Below, piece after piece: positions 6,201-52,256 of a DNA stretch of 64,000 nt; within the stretch, counting starts at the first letter, position 1; each line of letters begins with the position of its first letter. The stretch is from the NCBI RefSeq assembly GCF_029815055.1, contig NZ_JAPPWA010000002.1:868001-932000 (forward strand). Reading direction: 5' to 3'. This DNA is from Ignatzschineria sp. RMDPL8A (GTDB taxonomy: Bacteria > Pseudomonadota > Gammaproteobacteria > Cardiobacteriales > Wohlfahrtiimonadaceae). A program made the position numbers and the translations under genes. The notes beneath the pieces were generated by a model. The model had not been told where the DNA came from. It was given only the letters and a program-made list of their open reading frames with translations, and searched no databases.

Positions 6201-6662
6201 ATGAGTGTTGATATTAAAGAGCTGTATCAGGAAGTGATTCTTGATCACAATAAGCGTCCGCGCAACTTCCGAGTGATCGATCCGGCAACGCATACGGGCA
6301 AGGGTTTTAATCCGCTCTGCGGCGATCAGATTGAGGTCTATCTCTCAGTCAATTCGGCGGGCATTGTGGAAGCGGCGGCCTTTCAAGGGGAAGGATGCGC
6401 GATATCAACGGCCTCAAGTTCCATTATGACAGAGCTTGTGATTGGGAAGTCGATCGGCGAGATTGAGGCGCTTTTTACCGCATTTGAAATGGCAGTGAAG
6501 GCGAATGAAACGAGTAATGAACTTGCTCATCTTGGCGATCTAAGTGCATTGGTGGGCGTACGGGAGTATCCGGCGCGCGTTAAATGTGCAACGCTTCCTT
6601 GGCACGCTTTGCAAGCGGCGATCCATCACGCATCGGGCGCGGTAGAGAGCGAAAAAGAATAA
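6201..6662 (+). CDS. sufU: SufU-type iron-sulfur cluster scaffold / sulfur-transfer protein
   Basis: 153 residues of the IscU/NifU N-terminal family. The three ligand cysteines are C40 (NPLCGD, with D42), C66 (GEGCAIS) and C129 (RVKCATL). The 18-21 residue insertion before the third cysteine, with GVREYPARVKCATLPW, and the lack of the IscU LPPVK motif mark it as SufU rather than IscU. In Firmicutes SufU accepts sulfur from SufS and works with SufBCD. Here no sufB, C, D or S is adjacent; the next gene is sufT. No strong ribosome site is visible, apart from GAAAGAA about nine bases upstream. Confidence 0.85.
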   Translation: MSVDIKELYQEVILDHNKRPRNFRVIDPATHTGKGFNPLCGDQIEVYLSVNSAGIVEAAAFQGEGCAISTASSSIMTELVIGKSIGEIEALFTAFEMAVKANETSNELAHLGDLSALVGVREYPARVKCATLPWHALQAAIHHASGAVESEKE

Positions 6663-6746: not shown

Positions 6747-7148
6747 ATGGAGATTAAAACCGACGATCCCAATTTTCCACGCATCTTATTTGCAGAAGGG
6801 GTGGAGCAGACGGAAGCGAATACACGCGCGGCGGAAGAGATGGTTCCGAAAATTATCGAAGCGATCAAAAAAGTGTACGACCCTGAGATTCCGGTGGATA
6901 TTTATGAGCTAGGTCTTATTTATGCGATTGAATTTAACGAGCTAACCGAGGATAATGTGCGCGTTCAAATCGACATGACGTTAACCGCGCCAGGGTGCCC
7001 TGTTGCCGGTGAAATGCCGAGCTGGGTAAGCAACGCAATCTACTCAATTCCGCAAATTAAAGAGTGTTTAGTGGATCTTGTATGGGAACCCTTCTGGACA
7101 CCCGAGCGCATGTCGTTGCGTGCTAAATTGGAACTCAATATGTTCTAA
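6747..7148 (+). CDS. sufT: SufT / DUF59 (MIP18-family) iron-sulfur maturation factor
   Basis: 133 residues. The family helps mature Fe-S proteins by an incompletely known mechanism. Family marks are KVYDPEIPVDIYELGLIY, the TLTAPGCPVAGEM segment with its conserved cysteine, and VDLVWEPFWTPERMS near the C-terminus. Preceded by TTTAGGAGACAC, a good ribosome site. It lies 84 bases after sufU on the same strand, and sufU-sufT adjacency is a common suf-operon pattern. The stop is 39 bases before the secreted pilin-head protein, so all three are likely one transcript. Confidence 0.88.
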   Translation: MEIKTDDPNFPRILFAEGVEQTEANTRAAEEMVPKIIEAIKKVYDPEIPVDIYELGLIYAIEFNELTEDNVRVQIDMTLTAPGCPVAGEMPSWVSNAIYSIPQIKECLVDLVWEPFWTPERMSLRAKLELNMF

Positions 7149-7187
7149 ATAAACAATAAATTGGCAAATGCCAAAGGAGCTGTACCT

Positions 7188-9356
7188 ATGAAACGACCAC
7201 TTTTTAAAGTGACCTTATTAAGCTCGTTACTTGCAACGAGCATCGCATTGGCAGCTCCTTCTGGGGCACTGTTACGGGAGCATATCGAAGAGGATACGCT
7301 CCTTTATTTACGCGTTCCAGAATTAGTGAGCGGCGGCACGCTGAGCAATAATCATAATGAATTAAACCGCCTCTACTCCAATAAAGAATTCCAAAAAACC
7401 ACCAAAGCGCTTGCGGCAGCCATCCAAAATCCTAAAACGGTGGAAGGCGCGTTAAAACGTCTTGGGGTAAACCGCAATGCCGCTGAATTTAGCTACGCAA
7501 TTGCGCTATTAAGCCGCATTAATTCACCGCTTGAAGTGGCCGTTGTGGGGCAAAGCATTGAAAATCTCTCAGGTTATCTAACGGCCGGCGTTGAATTTGA
7601 ATCGGTCCGTGAGATCAATCAATTTCTGCAAACGTTAGGCGTTCCGCCGACCATTCAATTAAGCCCTGAAGGCGATCTTGCTGCTGGCGCTGTAGCGATC
7701 CATTTTGACACCAAAGCAAAACGTCTATATTTAATGGGATCATCGAAAGGGGCGGGACTTACCGAGCTTGAAGCGTGGAAGAAAACTTTAAATAGCCGCG
7801 CTAATAAAGAAGGGAATGTAATGAGCGTTGCCGAGTCGCGCATTGATCCCTCGGGCGATGGACTCTTTTTCTGGATGAGCGCGCCTAAGGGACAATTGGC
7901 CGAAGAGCTCGCCTTTTTTATTATGATGATGGATGAAAATCCGCTCTTCCCAATGCTGTTGCATCCGGATTTTAAAGGTCTCTCATTTGGCGCAGGTAAA
8001 ACCGATGAAAATCGCGGGCAAATTCGCTTTGTAATCGAAGGAGATACGCAAAAAGTATTAGGGTATTCTGGCAGCGAAAAAACGCCATTAAATTTTGAAA
8101 CGCTCGGAACGCCGCAATATATGGCGCATCAAACGCTTCCCTCAATTGCGGAATGGAACAGCTTTGAAAATCACATTCTTAATTTTCTAGAAGTTGATCA
8201 GCAAGAGGCTTATCGCATTGGCAAAGAGAAATTCAAAGCTGAATTGGATAAAAAACTTGGCTTTGATAGTGCGCTCTTTGTGAAAGCCTTTGGCCCGGAT
8301 ATTGCCGTCTATAAAGATGATTCAGGCGATAATACCGCTATCCGCATTCGTGATAAAGCGGCCTATAAAGAGCTCGCAAGCGCACTTGAAAAATCGGCAG
8401 AATCCGCTGAGAAAAAATCCGGCGTGACTCATTACCATTTTAATAATCAAAGCTACCGCGAACTGATTGATTTTGCTTTTTCAGAGGCGGAGCCCGAAGC
8501 GCGTGATGGGGTGATTGTGGCGCGTTTCTTATTGGCTAAATGGGTTGACCTCGGCGTTATGAATCAATTTTTCACCCCGGATAGCCATCTCTATTTAGTG
8601 GAAGATAATGATTGGGTATTTGTGAATTCGATTCCACAGCCATTAATTGAGCGTAAAAAAGCGAAATTTAAAGTAGCGCCATGGTTAAAAGAGAATAGCT
8701 ACCGCTCCGAGAATGCATTCTTAGGCAGTACAATCAATGTCAAAGGCGCGTATCAGAAGTATTATTACGGCCTGCTTGAGCGTCTCCAAGTTTTTGGCGA
8801 TGAGATGAATGTGCCGGTGAATTTAAATGAATTCCCGCTCTACAGCGATCTTCGCGTGAAAGAGTCGTCACAGGTTAATATTTCGCTCGATTGGACCAAA
8901 GAGTATCTCGGCTGGAGCTATCAATATGAATTGTTGCCTACCGATTACGATTATGGCTACGGTTCGACCTATGCGCAGCTCTATATGGTGGACGTTGCGG
9001 GCATGTTTGCGATTCCGGCGTACCAAGATTATGGTAAGCGTCAAATGGTGGCGGAAGGATTGATGCTCTCGGCAGCGGCAAAAGCGGCGGCGACAGAGTA
9101 TTACGCAACCATGGGTGAGTGGCCTGCGGATAATCAAACCGCGGGACTTTTACCGGCAGATACGATTCGCAGTAATGCGGTGCGCGGCGTAGAGATTAAT
9201 GAAAATGTGATTCTAATTCACTTTGATGAAATGCTCGATTATGGTTCGGTTATTTTGGAAGGCAGCGCGACTGAGGATGGCTGGGGCTCGGTAGTTTGGA
9301 ATTGCTATTCCATCGACATCGCCGATCGTTATCTTCCTGCGAATTGCCGTTTTTAA
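7188..9356 (+). CDS. Secreted protein with C-terminal type IV pilin head domain
   Basis: 722 residues. An in-frame TTG at 7161 exists, but the ATG at 7188 has AAAGGAG eight bases upstream and begins a typical Sec signal peptide (MKRPLFKV, hydrophobic core, AxA near residue 22). Residues ~25-600 are a large globular region I do not recognise with confidence; the start (DTLLYLRVPELV) recalls DUF3352-like periplasmic proteins, but this is a guess. From residue 606 the sequence becomes pilin: MFAIPAYQDYGKR, VAEGL, TEYYA, GEWPA, SNAV, and two cysteines (C706, C720) in WNC...LPANC. By hand, 28 of the first 40 residues equal the pilin encoded at 46767. The hydrophobic half of the pilin helix ([11 protein letters not shown]...) is missing and there is no prepilin cleavage site. 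Terminator follows at 9385. Function unknown. Confidence 0.85.
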   Translation: MKRPLFKVTLLSSLLATSIALAAPSGALLREHIEEDTLLYLRVPELVSGGTLSNNHNELNRLYSNKEFQKTTKALAAAIQNPKTVEGALKRLGVNRNAAEFSYAIALLSRINSPLEVAVVGQSIENLSGYLTAGVEFESVREINQFLQTLGVPPTIQLSPEGDLAAGAVAIHFDTKAKRLYLMGSSKGAGLTELEAWKKTLNSRANKEGNVMSVAESRIDPSGDGLFFWMSAPKGQLAEELAFFIMMMDENPLFPMLLHPDFKGLSFGAGKTDENRGQIRFVIEGDTQKVLGYSGSEKTPLNFETLGTPQYMAHQTLPSIAEWNSFENHILNFLEVDQQEAYRIGKEKFKAELDKKLGFDSALFVKAFGPDIAVYKDDSGDNTAIRIRDKAAYKELASALEKSAESAEKKSGVTHYHFNNQSYRELIDFAFSEAEPEARDGVIVARFLLAKWVDLGVMNQFFTPDSHLYLVEDNDWVFVNSIPQPLIERKKAKFKVAPWLKENSYRSENAFLGSTINVKGAYQKYYYGLLERLQVFGDEMNVPVNLNEFPLYSDLRVKESSQVNISLDWTKEYLGWSYQYELLPTDYDYGYGSTYAQLYMVDVAGMFAIPAYQDYGKRQMVAEGLMLSAAAKAAATEYYATMGEWPADNQTAGLLPADTIRSNAVRGVEINENVILIHFDEMLDYGSVILEGSATEDGWGSVVWNCYSIDIADRYLPANCRF

Positions 9357-46766: not shown

Positions 46767-47318
46767 ATGAAAAATTTACAAAAAGGTTTTACATTAATCG
46801 AGTTAATGATCGTTGTTGCGATCATCGGTATTCTTGCAATGTTCGCACTTCCTGCGTACCAAGACTACACTAAACGTACTCACGTTGCAGAAGGTCTCTC
46901 TTTAGCAGCATCTGCAAAATCTGCAGTAACAGAGTATTATGCATCGAATGGTGTTTGGGTTAAAGCAGTTGATGGTGGTGAAGAAGATTTAAATAAAGTT
47001 GCAGGATTAGAGTCTGCCACATCTATTAAAGGAAATGCTGTAGATTCAGTGGCTATTGGTGGTACTGATACTGTAACTGGTGGGGAAGGTAACACGATTA
47101 CGATCACTTATAATGAAAAAGTAGGAAAGGTAGATGGAGGTAAAGATTCTGATAACAAACCTCTTACTGTTGGTGCAACTGTTATCTTAAAGGCAAAAGA
47201 TGCAGGTGGTTCTGTGATTTGGGCTTGTGACAAAGGTACTGCTGGTGGTACTGTAGATGCTAAATATCGCCCAGCGAACTGTCGTACAGCACCAGCTAAT
47301 TGGGCTGATAAGCCATAG
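46767..47318 (+). CDS. pilA: Type IV prepilin (first of three), probable major pilin
   Basis: 183 residues. Seven-residue leader ending in Gly, cut before Phe (KG/FTLIE), Glu at mature position 5, and the hydrophobic assembly helix. The C-terminal disulfide pair is C154 and C172 (WAC ... ANC). Head-domain marks: TEYYA, GNAV and a variable middle. The sigma-54 promoter, good ribosome site region and codons that look like those of a highly expressed gene make this the best candidate for the main pilus subunit. A terminator follows at 47370, so it is probably transcribed alone. Confidence 0.95.
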
Positions 47319-47369
47319 GAAGTTTGTATTCTTATTAAAATAAAGAATATATTTGATTGTAGATAAATT

Positions 47370-47398
47370 AAAGAGCTCGAATTTCGGGCTCTTTTTTT
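47370..47398 (+). terminator. Intrinsic terminator after the first pilin
   Basis: AAAGAGCTCGA pairs with TTCGGGCTCTTT-type sequence (11 pairs including one T-G), then seven T; ends just 20 bases before the second pilin start. Confidence 0.88.
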
Positions 47399-47418
47399 GT
47401 AATGAGGAATTATCACTT

Positions 47419-47940
47419 ATGCAAAAAACTAAAACAAAAGGCTTTACCTTAATTGAGCTAATGATTGTAGTGGCGATCATCGGTATTTTAGCGATGTTTG
47501 CGCTCCCTGCGTACCAAGATTATGCACGCCGTGCGCATGTGTCGGAGGGGTTGACGCTGGCATCGACTGCGAAAATGGCGGTGGTTTATCATTATATTAC
47601 TAATGATGGTAAGTGGCTCATGAAGAGTGATTTATCCGCTGGGCAAACGTCCCTCAATGAAATCGTGGGGCTTGCAAAACCTACTGAGATTACAGGCGGC
47701 GCGGTGAATTCTGTGGAAATTTTAGAGGCGGAAAAAGCGCAAGGCATCTCTGGTAACAAAGTAGTGGTACGCTTTAATCAAAAAGTGACGAAAACGCCCA
47801 ATGCATTTGTCACGATGCAAGCGTGGGATAATGGAACGACGATGCAGTGGTCGTGCGGGAGTGAGGATCAAGATGCGATTCCTAATAAATATCTTCCGGT
47901 CGTATGTCGTGATTTAACTAATCCTGCTACGCGCTCTTAG
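47419..47940 (+). CDS. Type IV prepilin (second of three)
   Basis: 173 residues from the ATG at 47419, which has GAGGAA upstream. Eight-residue leader (MQKTKTKG) cut before FTLIE; assembly helix identical in type to the first pilin. It differs early in the head ([22 protein letters not shown]) and has the disulfide pair in WSC ... VVC. It lies between terminators or AT-rich gaps, so expression may depend on read-through or a weak own promoter. It may be a minor or alternative subunit. Confidence 0.92.
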
Positions 47941-48191
47941 ATAATAATTATATAATAAGATTATTAGTTTATTGGTTTGTTAGATTGTTTTGATTGTTAT
48001 TAATAATATTATCGTGAAGCATCGTTAATTATTAACGTTTCTTTATCTGTAAGTTATTGAAAATATTAATGGTGGTTTGCGAACTCAGCTAGGTGAATGA
48101 TTGATTCTTGGCATGATTTTCTCTTTAATAGTTAATGTCGATTCTATATTTATTGTCGATAAAAATTATAACTAGTTAATTGGAGTAATTT

Positions 48192-48749
48192 ATGAGAAGT
48201 AATCTACAAAAAGGGTTTACCTTAATTGAGTTAATGATCGTTGTGGCGATTATTGGTATTTTGGCAATGTTCGCACTGCCTGCGTACCAAGATTATACAA
48301 AACGGACGCACGTTGCCGAAGGGATTCAATTAGCCGCATCTGCTAAATCAGCGGTCACGGAATATTTTGCTTCCAATGGTAAGTGGCCAGCTAAGAAACA
48401 AGGAGACACTACTACGAATAAACAGGCTGGAATTGCTGAGCCTAGTGATATCACAGGGAATGCGGTTAAAAGCATTACCGTGTTAGATGCTCCAACTGAT
48501 TCAGCCGGTCAAGTAGGAACGATTACAACACCTATCCAAGGTAATGATATTGAGATCAAATACAATACTAAGGTTGAGGATAATGCAATTGTAGTGCTTA
48601 GAGCATGGGATACCGGCGGTGCAGTACGCTGGTCATGTGATGGTAAAGAAACTGAGACAACTAGCGGTAGTACAACGACTAAGCAGAAATTGCAGACTAA
48701 ACATCTTCCTTCAAGTTGCCGTGATTTAACAGCACCTACTGCAAGCTAA
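48192..48749 (+). CDS. Type IV prepilin (third of three)
   Basis: 185 residues; leader MRSNLQKG cut before FTLIE, Glu5 present. The head opens like the first pilin ([20 protein letters not shown]) and then diverges, with a Thr/Ser-rich insertion (residues ~160-172) inside the disulfide loop between WSC and SSC. The 251-base AT-rich gap before it has no clear promoter; TTGGCATG at 48108 lacks a matching -12 element. GGAGTAA precedes the start. Its GKWPAKKQ segment is the closest of the three to the GEWPADNQ of the fusion protein at 7188-9356. Confidence 0.93.
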
Positions 48750-48787
48750 GCACGAACGACTCTTTTTCTATGGAATGAATTATAAAG

Positions 48788-48809
48788 CTCACCTTAGGGT
48801 GAGTTTTTT
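48788..48809 (+). terminator. Intrinsic terminator after the third pilin
   Basis: CTCACC, loop TTAG, GGTGAG, followed by six T. Confidence 0.88.
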
Positions 48810-49120
48810 ATTGTCCACAGTTTTTAGCTTTCCTAGAGTCTCCCACTTTTTACCGCATCGAAGCTTCCTCTTTTTTGTCAGTTTACACTTCTTGAAATTA
48901 GCCAGTAAAATTAACGACTAAGATCAATAAATAGTGATATAAATCTTGCCTGTTTACAGATCTATAGATTCGTTCACCACTTTTTCCCCGCGATTTTCCA
49001 CTTTTATCCCTTATTTAAATTATGCCAAACTCTCGATATTGACGATTGTAGAGGCGATTTTTGGCGGATGGGTTTTATGTCGGGGAGATGAAAGGGAAGA
49101 AAGTGGTTTTTTATTAAACG

Positions 49121-49150
49121 CCTTGGTGGTAAAAAATGGTAAAAAGTGGT
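49121..49150 (+). repeat. Three tandem TGGT boxes with ten-base period (MraZ-box-like)
   Basis: Ten-base units ending in TGGT at 49130, 49140 and 49150 (CCTTGGTGGT, AAAAAATGGT, AAAAAGTGGT), followed by TATATA. MraZ binds three or more short G-rich direct repeats spaced by one helical turn in front of dcw clusters; these have that spacing and place. Confidence 0.6.
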
Positions 49151-49208
49151 ATATATAGTTACTCAATCATATTGATAACTGTTTTCCTCCCTAATTGAAG
49201 GCTTGCCC

Positions 49209-50150
49209 GTGAGTAATGATTCCTTTAAACATAAAAGTGTCTTAGCTGACGAAAGTTTAGCGGGGCTTGATATCAAACCAGATGGCATCTATGTCGATGC
49301 AACATTTGGTCGAGGAGGGCACTCACGTCTGATTTTAAATGAGTTAAAGGGGGCGGGGCGACTCATTTCGATTGACCGAGATGAAGCGGCGGAAGCCCAT
49401 GCCAAACTCCATTTTGCTGATGATGACAATTTTACCTTTTGTCGGGGCAATATGAGTGGCATTGAAGCGCATTTAAAATCGATTGGCATTGAAAAAGTCG
49501 ACGGCGTACTGATGGATATCGGGGTGTCGTCGCCACAGCTTGATGATGCGAGCCGTGGATTTAGCTTTATGCGAAATGGGCCGCTCGATATGCGGATGAA
49601 TCAGGCGGAAGGAATGACCGCCGTCGAGTGGGTGATGACAACGCCGCTTGAGACGATGATTCAAGTATTTCGCGATTATGGGGAAGAACGGTTAGCCGCA
49701 AGGATTGCACGTGAAATTGTCAAGGAGCGAGAAGAGCGAGAGATTTCCACCACATTTGATCTGGTTGAAATCATCACCCGAGTGAATCCGCTAAGGCAAG
49801 GGCGTAAGCAGAAACATCCCGCAACGCGCGTCTTTCAAGCGATTCGGATTGCGATAAATAGTGAGCTCGATGAGCTTCGTTTAGCGTTATCAGGGGCGGT
49901 GAATTCCTTAGCCGTTGGTGGGCGTTTAGTGGTGATCTCGTTTCACTCGTTAGAAGACCGAATTGTGAAGAATTTTATGCGCGATCGCTCGGAGGTGAAG
50001 GATCTATTTCCCGACCTTCCTATCTTAATTACCGATTCGAATCCGGATCTGAAATTAATTGGCAGAGCGATTAAAGCGAGTGATGAAGAGTGCGAGCGGA
50101 ATATCCGTGCGCGAAGTGCAGTTTTGAGAATAGCAGAGAAAATAAAATGA
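49209..50150 (+). CDS. rsmH: 16S rRNA cytosine-1402 N4-methyltransferase RsmH
   Basis: 313 residues from the GTG at 49209, which has GAAGG eight bases upstream; a TTG two codons earlier is the alternative. SAM-binding DATFGRGGHS, the family DGVLMDIGVSSPQLDDASRGFSF (residues ~95-117) and QAIRIAINSELDEL. Methylates C1402 of 16S rRNA. First gene of the dcw run; overlaps ftsL by four bases. Confidence 0.95.
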   Translation: MSNDSFKHKSVLADESLAGLDIKPDGIYVDATFGRGGHSRLILNELKGAGRLISIDRDEAAEAHAKLHFADDDNFTFCRGNMSGIEAHLKSIGIEKVDGVLMDIGVSSPQLDDASRGFSFMRNGPLDMRMNQAEGMTAVEWVMTTPLETMIQVFRDYGEERLAARIAREIVKEREEREISTTFDLVEIITRVNPLRQGRKQKHPATRVFQAIRIAINSELDELRLALSGAVNSLAVGGRLVVISFHSLEDRIVKNFMRDRSEVKDLFPDLPILITDSNPDLKLIGRAIKASDEECERNIRARSAVLRIAEKIK

Positions 50151-50479
50151 TTACGGCAAGATTTACAATGATACTTGGGGTTATGGTGATGGCTCTTGGC
50201 ATGTACAGTGTTGCGAATACGCAGCAGTCTCAGGAGCTTGTGCGCGAGATTGAGAGCGTCGCAAAAGAGAATCATCGATTAACGGAAGATTATAAAAAGC
50301 TCAAACTTGAAGAGAGCACGCTCATTACCGAGGCGCTTTTAGATGAGAGCAGTCGCGAACAGCTTGGCATGGTCGTTCCGGAGTCAAGCGCGATTGTATA
50401 TGTGATCGAAGCACCGGCGATGGGCAATGTTGCAGCGCGTAACGCTCAAGAGGCAGAGCAATATTCGATGAGAAATTAA
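50147..50479 (+). CDS. ftsL: Cell division protein FtsL
   Basis: 110 residues starting inside the rsmH stop (ATGA). A short N-terminus, one membrane helix (about 5-22) and a periplasmic coiled coil (about 25-60) that would pair with FtsB; the end is Ala/Gln/Glu-rich. FtsL varies a lot in sequence, so position between rsmH and ftsI carries much of the weight. Confidence 0.88.
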   Translation: MITARFTMILGVMVMALGMYSVANTQQSQELVREIESVAKENHRLTEDYKKLKLEESTLITEALLDESSREQLGMVVPESSAIVYVIEAPAMGNVAARNAQEAEQYSMRN

Positions 50480-50483
50480 TGGT

Positions 50484-52256
50484 ATGAAGGCAGCTTCAAA
50501 GCGAACAGGAACCCCTAAAAAAAAGGGTGATAAACCGGCGCTACTTCAACGTATTGGGCAATTTAATTTACCCAACTGGCGCAGACAACTGGTGTTGTTT
50601 GCGCTTTTTGTTGTGGCGGGAATTTTATTAACCGGCTCTTTTTATCGTCAAGTGACGCAAGCGGATAAGCTGATCGCTGAGGGCAATAAACGCTACCGTA
50701 AAATTGAGAATACTAACGCGGTGCGCGGTTCCATTTATGATCGCAATGGTAACAGTATCGCGGTATCGGTCGATGTGGAATCGATCGCAATTAACCCTAA
50801 ACAGCTCATTCATAATCCCTATAAGATTGCGCTGCTTGCGCATGTTTTAGAGCGTGATCCCAATGAGTTTTATCAGGCGGTGCAAAAACGTCAAAACACT
50901 CACTTTCTTTGGATTGCGCGCCACATCTCTCCAAAAATGGCCCATCTCGTCCGTCAAATTGAGGGCGATGGTATTTCGCTAATTAAAGAGTATAAACGCT
51001 ATTATCCCGATGCGGAGATCACCTCGCACCTGCTTGGATTTACCAATATTGATGATGAGGGAATCGAAGGGGTGGAGCTCTCGTATGATGAGTGGTTAAG
51101 TGGAACGAATGGGAAATATCGCCTGACGCGCGATGGTCGCGGGCGACTGTTAGATCGTGAGGTATTAACGGCGGAAGAGCCTGGGCGCGATCTCACCTTA
51201 ACGATCGATCGTCAAATTCAGATTGTTGCTTATCGAGCACTTAAAGCGGCAGTGATTAAACATAAAGCCAAAGGCGGAACGGTGGTGGTCGCCAATGCTA
51301 AAACCGGTGAAATTCTCGCAATGGTGAATCAGCCAGCGGGAAATCCGAATCGTGCCAAAGATCGCGCTACGCCCGGGTTACTGCGAAATCGTGCGATTAC
51401 CGATGTCTTTGAACCGGGGTCAACCATGAAGCCATTTGTGGTGGCAACGGGATTAGAAACGGGAAAATGGCGCCCTGATACCACCATTAAAATTGGCAGT
51501 TATTTCCGCGTTGGCCGGCATGTAGTACGCGATGTTGGGTATGCCAAAGAGCTTGATGTGGCCAGCGTTTTGATTAAATCGAGTAACATTGGCGTGGCGA
51601 AAATTGCGCTCTCGATGGATCCTGATATTTTATGGCGTAAATATAAAATGCTCGGCATTGCGGAAAAGAGCCATCTTGGCCTTGTTGGAGAGGTGCCGGG
51701 AACGGTGACCGATCTTTCGGCATGGAAGCGCAATGAATTTGAATATGCGACAAAATCGTTTGGATACGGTTTGAGCGTCAACACGCTGAAACTTGCGCAG
51801 ATGTATACGGTTTTTGCCAATAAAGGCGTTTATAAACCGCTTCGCATCGTGCGCAGTAATTATCAATTGCCGGAAACTCGGGTTTTCTCGCCAGAGAGTG
51901 CGGAGACGGTGCTCTATCTGCTTGAAGATGTACTTAATAAAAGTAAGGGCGGCAGCGGTTGGCGTGGGCAGGTGGATAAATTCCGCGTCGCTGGAAAGTC
52001 CGGAACGGTACGAAAATTGGAAAATGGGCGCTATAGTGATAATAAGCATCGCAGCTTTTTTGTCGGCATTGCGCCGGTGACGGACCCTGAGTTTATTATC
52101 GCTGTGATGATTGATGAGCCTACTGAAGGCGGGTATTATGGAGGGCTTGTGGCCGCTCCGATATTCTCTGAAGTGATGGGAAATACGTTACGAATTATGG
52201 GGATAAGGCCTGATGGAATGATGAGGATGCCGAAACTGCAACTCATCTCACAATAA
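50484..52256 (+). CDS. ftsI: Penicillin-binding protein 3 / FtsI (septal transpeptidase)
   Basis: 590 residues. Class B PBP of the divisome. Membrane helix (about 36-56), pedestal NAVRGSIYDRNGNSIA, and transpeptidase motifs FEPGSTMKPF (SxxK), KSSNIG (SxN) and GKSGTVRK (KSG). Four bases after ftsL. No truncation. Confidence 0.97.
   Translation: MKAASKRTGTPKKKGDKPALLQRIGQFNLPNWRRQLVLFALFVVAGILLTGSFYRQVTQADKLIAEGNKRYRKIENTNAVRGSIYDRNGNSIAVSVDVESIAINPKQLIHNPYKIALLAHVLERDPNEFYQAVQKRQNTHFLWIARHISPKMAHLVRQIEGDGISLIKEYKRYYPDAEITSHLLGFTNIDDEGIEGVELSYDEWLSGTNGKYRLTRDGRGRLLDREVLTAEEPGRDLTLTIDRQIQIVAYRALKAAVIKHKAKGGTVVVANAKTGEILAMVNQPAGNPNRAKDRATPGLLRNRAITDVFEPGSTMKPFVVATGLETGKWRPDTTIKIGSYFRVGRHVVRDVGYAKELDVASVLIKSSNIGVAKIALSMDPDILWRKYKMLGIAEKSHLGLVGEVPGTVTDLSAWKRNEFEYATKSFGYGLSVNTLKLAQMYTVFANKGVYKPLRIVRSNYQLPETRVFSPESAETVLYLLEDVLNKSKGGSGWRGQVDKFRVAGKSGTVRKLENGRYSDNKHRSFFVGIAPVTDPEFIIAVMIDEPTEGGYYGGLVAAPIFSEVMGNTLRIMGIRPDGMMRMPKLQLISQ

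Follow-up and report, generated by a model that had tools for sequence, protein, structure and literature searches.

Type IVa pilins (PF00114), such as PilE of Neisseria and PilA of Pseudomonas, are regarded as subunits whose only role is in the filament, where the start of the pilin helix faces the base. Pilin sequence without its N-terminus occurs in Neisseria at the pilS loci, silent donor cassettes for pilin antigenic variation that carry no start or export signal of their own and lie near the expressed pilin. TP0453 of the spirochaete Treponema pallidum is an outer-membrane-associated lipoprotein that has been described as being placed on the inner face of the outer membrane. Here, we describe a gene in a window of 64,000 nucleotides (the whole stretch of DNA that was analysed) from Ignatzschineria sp. 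RMDPL8A, whose product resembles each of these systems in part. It shares with type IVa pilins the second half of helix 1, the four-stranded sheet, and the C-terminal cysteine pair, but lacks the prepilin peptidase site, has a shortened helix, and begins with an exported domain almost 600 residues long. The likeness to TP0453 lies in the fold of this N-terminal domain (N-domain) and in the lipidated appearance of several family relatives, although the aligned rows are 5 to 8% identical, the N-domain is about twice as long, TP0453 has no pilin tail, and the window protein has no lipobox. Like pilS, the gene holds pilin sequence without its N-terminus; unlike pilS, it has its own start and signal and an in-frame exported domain, and it is conserved across families. 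The features of the locus are as follows:

7188 to 9356, + strand: gene of the 722-residue fusion protein, stop included (open reading frame and translation; full-length relatives)
7188 to 7253, + strand: Sec-type signal peptide, residues 1 to 22, cleavage place judged by eye
7257 to 8951, + strand: N-domain, residues 24 to 588, predicted TP0453-like fold, no Pfam or NCBIfam family over cut-off
8970 to 9002, + strand: remnant of a degraded pilin assembly helix, residues 595 to 605, from the alignment of relatives, low model confidence
9003 to 9353, + strand: pilin head, residues 606 to 722, rest of helix 1 and four-stranded sheet (PF00114; AlphaFold2 model)
9303 to 9347, + strand: pilin cysteine pair C706-C720, present in 32 of 32 tail-bearing proteins, putative disulfide
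46767 to 47318, + strand: genuine prepilin (PF00114 and PF07963), the one compared with the head
47419 to 47940, + strand: genuine prepilin (PF00114 and PF07963), ATG chosen by eye, reading frame listed from the TTG at 47353
48192 to 48749, + strand: genuine prepilin (PF00114 and PF07963)

The fusion gene is a single uninterrupted open frame of 722 residues, both in the list of reading frames and in translation, with a TTG at 7161, 27 bases upstream of the ATG, as an alternative start. A 96% identical record (L031) has the same frame and the same tail. The N-terminus, MKRPLFKVTLLSSLLATSIALA, reads by eye as a Sec signal, and the product would accordingly be an exported envelope protein, with Sec as its probable route. 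No lipobox pattern was found in the window protein, whereas a loose version of the pattern was matched by 12 of the 32 tail-bearing proteins (two of them, L014 and L045, doubtful); a lipid anchor is thus probably present in some relatives, and not in the window protein.

The first-pass annotation, made from the letters alone, had proposed that residues 606 to 722 are pilin-like and sit on an exported protein that lacks a prepilin site. PF00114 (Pilin) indeed matched residues 621 to 721 with an E value of 3.9e-11 (44.3 bits versus a cut-off of 22), and the count made by hand, 28 of the first 40 residues from position 606 equal to the pilin at 46767, was exact. The local score between the tail and this pilin was 200, against a maximum of 51 in 1000 shuffles of that pilin, and C706 and C720 were found where they had been placed. 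Pfam names the tail alone in the window protein, and a plain Pfam search would just label members of this family as Pilin. PF07963, the prepilin motif, gave no match in the window protein, nor did the motif appear within the 30 residues before the head in any of the 32 tail-bearing proteins, a set that includes the window protein and its close kin L031 as well as seven extra proteins of family f36. Structure prediction, which had been suggested as a check, came out in favor of the pilin fold. We modeled full-length proteins with AlphaFold2 for the window protein (23 aligned sequences, mean pLDDT 76.8) and for a 21% identical relative, L043 (pLDDT 81.9). In the former, residues 606 to 722 were predicted as a pilin head that aligned to 4v1j with a Z score of 16.0 over 110 residues (pLDDT 77 to 94 for residues 621 to 720, as averages per block of ten), and the head of the L043 model matched pilins with a Z score of 13.1. 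The junction between the two domains was weak in both models, with pLDDT below 50 at residues 588 to 613 of the window protein.

The complete hydrophobic N-terminal half of helix 1 that typifies type IV pilins was found neither in the window protein, where it is degraded, nor in its relatives, where it is shortened. The segment LYMVDVAG had been suspected to be what is left of a pilin helix, and we can read it as such because relatives keep a clearer form (e.g., VAVVGILAAIAIPAYQDY). The accompanying claim, that the assembly helix is missing, needs to be narrowed: it suits the degraded window sequence, but in most relatives the helix is shortened, not absent. Most tail-bearing proteins retain a hydrophobic stretch corresponding to approximately pilin residues 9 to 24 (e.g., TVAVVGILAAIAIPAY), whose starting point is roughly constant even between distant families, and the window remnant is the least hydrophobic of all (mean hydropathy 0.93 versus 1.07 to 2.32 in the other 31). 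In the alignment, the junction between N-domain and head is likewise common to distant families.

The N-domain did not resemble any named family. NCBIfam gave nothing over its cut-offs in the window protein, Pfam returned only E values of 0.03 or worse for 14 N-domains, a PHROGs search gave no match, and a profile of the N-domain (A2) run against PDB sequences yielded chance-level rows, with no TP0453 chain up to E 1. The profile search that had been put forward as a check thus delivered tail-bearing relatives (see below) but no Pfam or NCBIfam name. In the models, by contrast, TP0453 was the best non-pilin match of the N-domain for both proteins, with Foldseek E values of 7.8e-4 (window) and 4.9e-5 (L043). 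The window N-domain aligned to TP0453 with a Z score of 9.5 (215 residues, 5.8 Å; next unrelated row 6.3) and that of L043 with a Z score of 11.2 (218 residues, 5.5 Å; next unrelated row 5.9). The N-domain is therefore predicted to have a TP0453-like fold, a finding that, together with the kinship between heads and lineage pilins and with the other pilin-head fusions described below, adds to the earlier account. Since the match exceeds 5 Å rmsd and its 200 to 218 residues are spread over a domain of ~560, we take it as a likeness and not as proof of kinship, and a likeness of fold does not amount to a function.

That the fusion is an event peculiar to this genome was not supported by the comparison with relatives. 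When the whole protein was searched against the own genome and its relatives, 57 in all, 35 gave matches, a large share of which were plain pilins, and full-length tail-bearing relatives were found in the same family (L002, L003, and L004), order (L014, L019, and L024), and class (L010). With profile A2, built on the N-domain only, 14 of 369 class genomes (own included) were detected, and all 14 carry the pilin tail. In a phylum sample of 398 genomes, a wider profile (A3) found the N-domain in two, G394 and the own genome. Within the order, the count was 19 of 32 genomes, and 13 of the 19 have the tail (the head of G010 is cut by a contig end, and G774 was counted by its frame length and by L031, whose position on its contig is identical). 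Five genomes of genus g4 have the N-domain without a head, while the frame of G002 is cut too early to judge its tail. A head-less paralogue with a 646-residue frame (L047, G000:C2:1556128-1556595) lies outside the window in the own genome. Because the N-domain occurs without the head in this paralogue and in the five g4 genomes, it would appear to work on its own. A second N-domain fragment, L066 (G011:C8:8544-8822), is apparently broken, with one internal stop. A scan of named genome contigs for relatives returned one record, a Lysobacteraceae MAG, and we found no description of such a protein in the titles and abstract starts of a limited literature coverage. As judged from these sequences, the fusion architecture has a long history and a patchy distribution across the class. 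We reject an artefact of assembly or annotation, since full-length relatives in many separate assemblies carry the tail; nothing was found in its favor.

We compared tails and genuine pilins in three head trees of ~115 columns each, with many open forks. The first held 23 tails, 32 pilins, and three heads of DUF805 proteins; the second added six f36 tails and nine pilins (29 tails in total); and in the third, 10 of 73 rows were dropped for length or doubt, the tail of G023 among them. Pilins came from 25 of 40 loci, the others being off pattern, with two of these dropped (L132 and L137), and 17 f36 loci were scanned for pilins, yielding nine sequences that fit the pattern; none of the trees includes the tails of L062 and L146. 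A single clade of tails was rejected each time, with p-AU values of 5.4e-4 (23 tails), 3.0e-6 (29 tails), and 5.2e-6 (10 rows removed). In the 29-tail tree, four f1 tails and five f1 pilins formed one set (support 98/92), which reappeared in the reduced tree at 94/88, unstarred, within a starred f1 set. The five pilins in this set belong to the sister genus g2, and the three pilins of the window fall just outside, such that the window tail groups with g2 pilins and not with its own in the 23- and 29-tail trees, and with weaker support in the third. Similarly, in the 29-tail tree, eight f36 tails clustered with seven f36 pilins (95/86), the remaining five of the twelve falling outside, and tails paired with the pilin of their own genome in G206 (100/99, inside the f36 set) and in G023 (100/100). 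Tails of f5, f47, and others grouped with each other and not with their own pilins, with partly weak support.

Across the whole set, tails were more similar to pilins of their own genome than in permuted pairings (p = 1e-4, or 9e-4 without f1; shared ancestry is uncorrected in both). Own-genome pilins ranked first for only 4 of 18 tails, with the three f5 tails at ranks 12, 13, and 19 of 20, G073 at 12, and the window at 5. In the whole-protein tree, which includes the tail columns, the proteins of f1, f3, f36, f5, and f47 each stay together. We read this pattern of sequences as the outcome of a single ancient fusion, in which resident pilins have taken the place of the head several times over. 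Alternatively, independent fusions could have occurred at the same junction in each lineage, and we prefer replacement because the junction is shared.

Pilin heads were also found at the C-terminus of other non-pilin proteins, whose N-terminal parts differ and some of which are membrane proteins. Long frames with PF00114 included DUF805 proteins (L091, L092, L093, and L134), DnaJ/TM2 proteins (L170 and L171), and DUF945 proteins (L168 and L169), and a leucine-rich protein (L167) was recognized by eye; Pfam agreed with the domain assignment for L093, L170, and L169, the other fusions being assigned by eye. By eye as well, approximately five tandem heads follow a DnaJ-like membrane protein (L144, G781:C55), an exported protein has two heads (L136, G025:C2), and so does one member of the present family (L147, G811:C185). 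A tentative generalization, which we consider possible but rather doubtful, is that pilin heads serve in this class as a portable addressing module. Freed from the polymerizing helix, they would be attached to envelope proteins of unrelated kinds, at times several in a row, with repeated replacement or gene conversion holding them close to the resident pilins in some lineages; the carrier would thereby be brought to the pilus of its own cell or to the pilus machine.

For the window protein, our leading reading, to which we assign a probability of roughly 0.45, is that the head, borne by an exported TP0453-like carrier, acts as a module for docking onto the type IV pilus of the same cell or onto the pilus machine. 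Without a prepilin site, with a shortened helix, and with a large domain in front, the head would not be processed or polymerized like a normal pilin, which makes docking its most likely use. It would bind the pilus or its machine through its pilin surfaces, and the bound protein may then anchor, cap, or sense the pilus at the envelope. Pilin addition is placed at the filament base in one report (PMC12603735). Sitting behind a large domain, the head should find no fit inside a filament and might instead bind at the proximal end, or contact pili or the secretin from the side; this expected geometry and the lineage kinship of the heads are what lead us to favor docking on the own pilus. The f5 tails, together with two genomes that have no other PF00114 pilin, speak against strict mimicry. 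In these two (G066 and G225), the tail was the sole PF00114 match in a search of long frames at E 0.001, which recovered the tails in 19 of 25 tail-bearing genomes, although both nonetheless have prepilins, as do all 7 of the N-domain genomes tested for them. PilQ was matched in 31 of 31 N-domain genomes (30 over cut-off), but also in 37 of the 38 genomes where the N-domain was not found (over or under cut-off), and its co-occurrence hence does not discriminate. If docking holds, a widespread non-polymerizing head that in some lineages has come to match the resident pilins would point to a hitherto unknown level at which pili are anchored, sensed, or controlled. With its pilin head mounted on an exported scaffold, the protein also offers a natural reagent for finding pilin-head binders.

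The head could also be a plain structural or membrane-tethering module that makes no contact with the pilus, its pilin likeness being a by-product of neutral gene conversion among similar sequences, which we consider unlikely but deserving of weight. The tracking of own pilins in some lineages only would fit this, as would the hydrophobic stretch retained in most relatives and the similar heads placed behind the membrane domains of DUF805 and TM2 proteins. Differences between the window gene and L031 are twice as dense in the tail (35 of 351 bases) as in the rest (85 of 1764; p = 3.5e-4), as conversion could give, and a comparison of the window tail with its own pilins showed no clear conversion tract. 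Yet tail dN/dS was low, 0.08 to 0.28 in the five scorable pairs out of six; dS exceeded 1 in four of these, and the window-L031 pair, the only one with dS well under 1, gave 0.08. Furthermore, each lineage replacement left a head with its cysteine pair, and the window protein keeps its head even though its hydrophobic stretch is degraded.

Display at the surface, with the head as an adhesin-like binding domain for a target other than the own pilus (host, DNA, or other cells), strikes us as improbable. The protein is exported and probably lipid-anchored in some relatives, and the tandem heads of L144 and the two-headed L147 resemble display arrays, but the N-domain resembles TP0453, whose described position is the inner side of the outer membrane, and Pfam and NCBIfam gave no adhesin family match in the window protein. 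That the tail is a pilS-like silent cassette is very improbable: the missing pilin N-terminus and the likeness to lineage pilins would fit, but the tail stands in frame with an exported domain at the same junction in distant families, keeps its cysteine pair at low dN/dS, lies ~37 kb from the pilins, and is by PF00114 the sole such head in its genome.

Docking on the pilus finds no echo in the neighborhood of the gene, where no pilus-assembly gene was seen to adjoin it among the neighbors that could be named, a minority of all. We compared rough lists of reading frames for 27 stretches, comprising the window, L031, the stretch of the paralogue (L090), and 24 stretches around family members (for L075, the list took another frame over the fusion gene). 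Besides the family itself, no cluster recurred in more than 4 of the 27, and between families neighbors were shared only as scattered pairs or triples, such as amt and glnK genes in G062 and G188 and pyruvate kinase in G073 and G075. Named neighbors were housekeeping genes, a LysR regulator, UPF0029, and, in f47, a YcgR-like PilZ gene. In the window, the fusion gene is preceded on its strand by genes for NifU_N (6201-6662) and FeS_assembly_P (6747-7148); the second of these stops 39 bases short of the fusion ATG.

Several further observations were made along the way. At both f47 loci (L079:3673-4335 and L084:3195 onward), a gene of one cluster adjoins the fusion gene, in L079 YcgR-like PilZ by Pfam. 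PilQ frames were short in all nine g4 genomes (G003, G005, G007, G009, G011, and G013-G016), at 334 to 514 amino acids (a contig end may have truncated the shortest), compared with 684 to 703 in eight f1 genomes outside g4; the five g4 genomes with a head-less N-domain are among these nine. Lastly, at 46767-52256 of the window, the three prepilin genes are closely followed by mraW and ftsI-like genes, and in genus g2 (L067-L069), the fusion gene is located beside mraY and relatives of the window's dcw genes.
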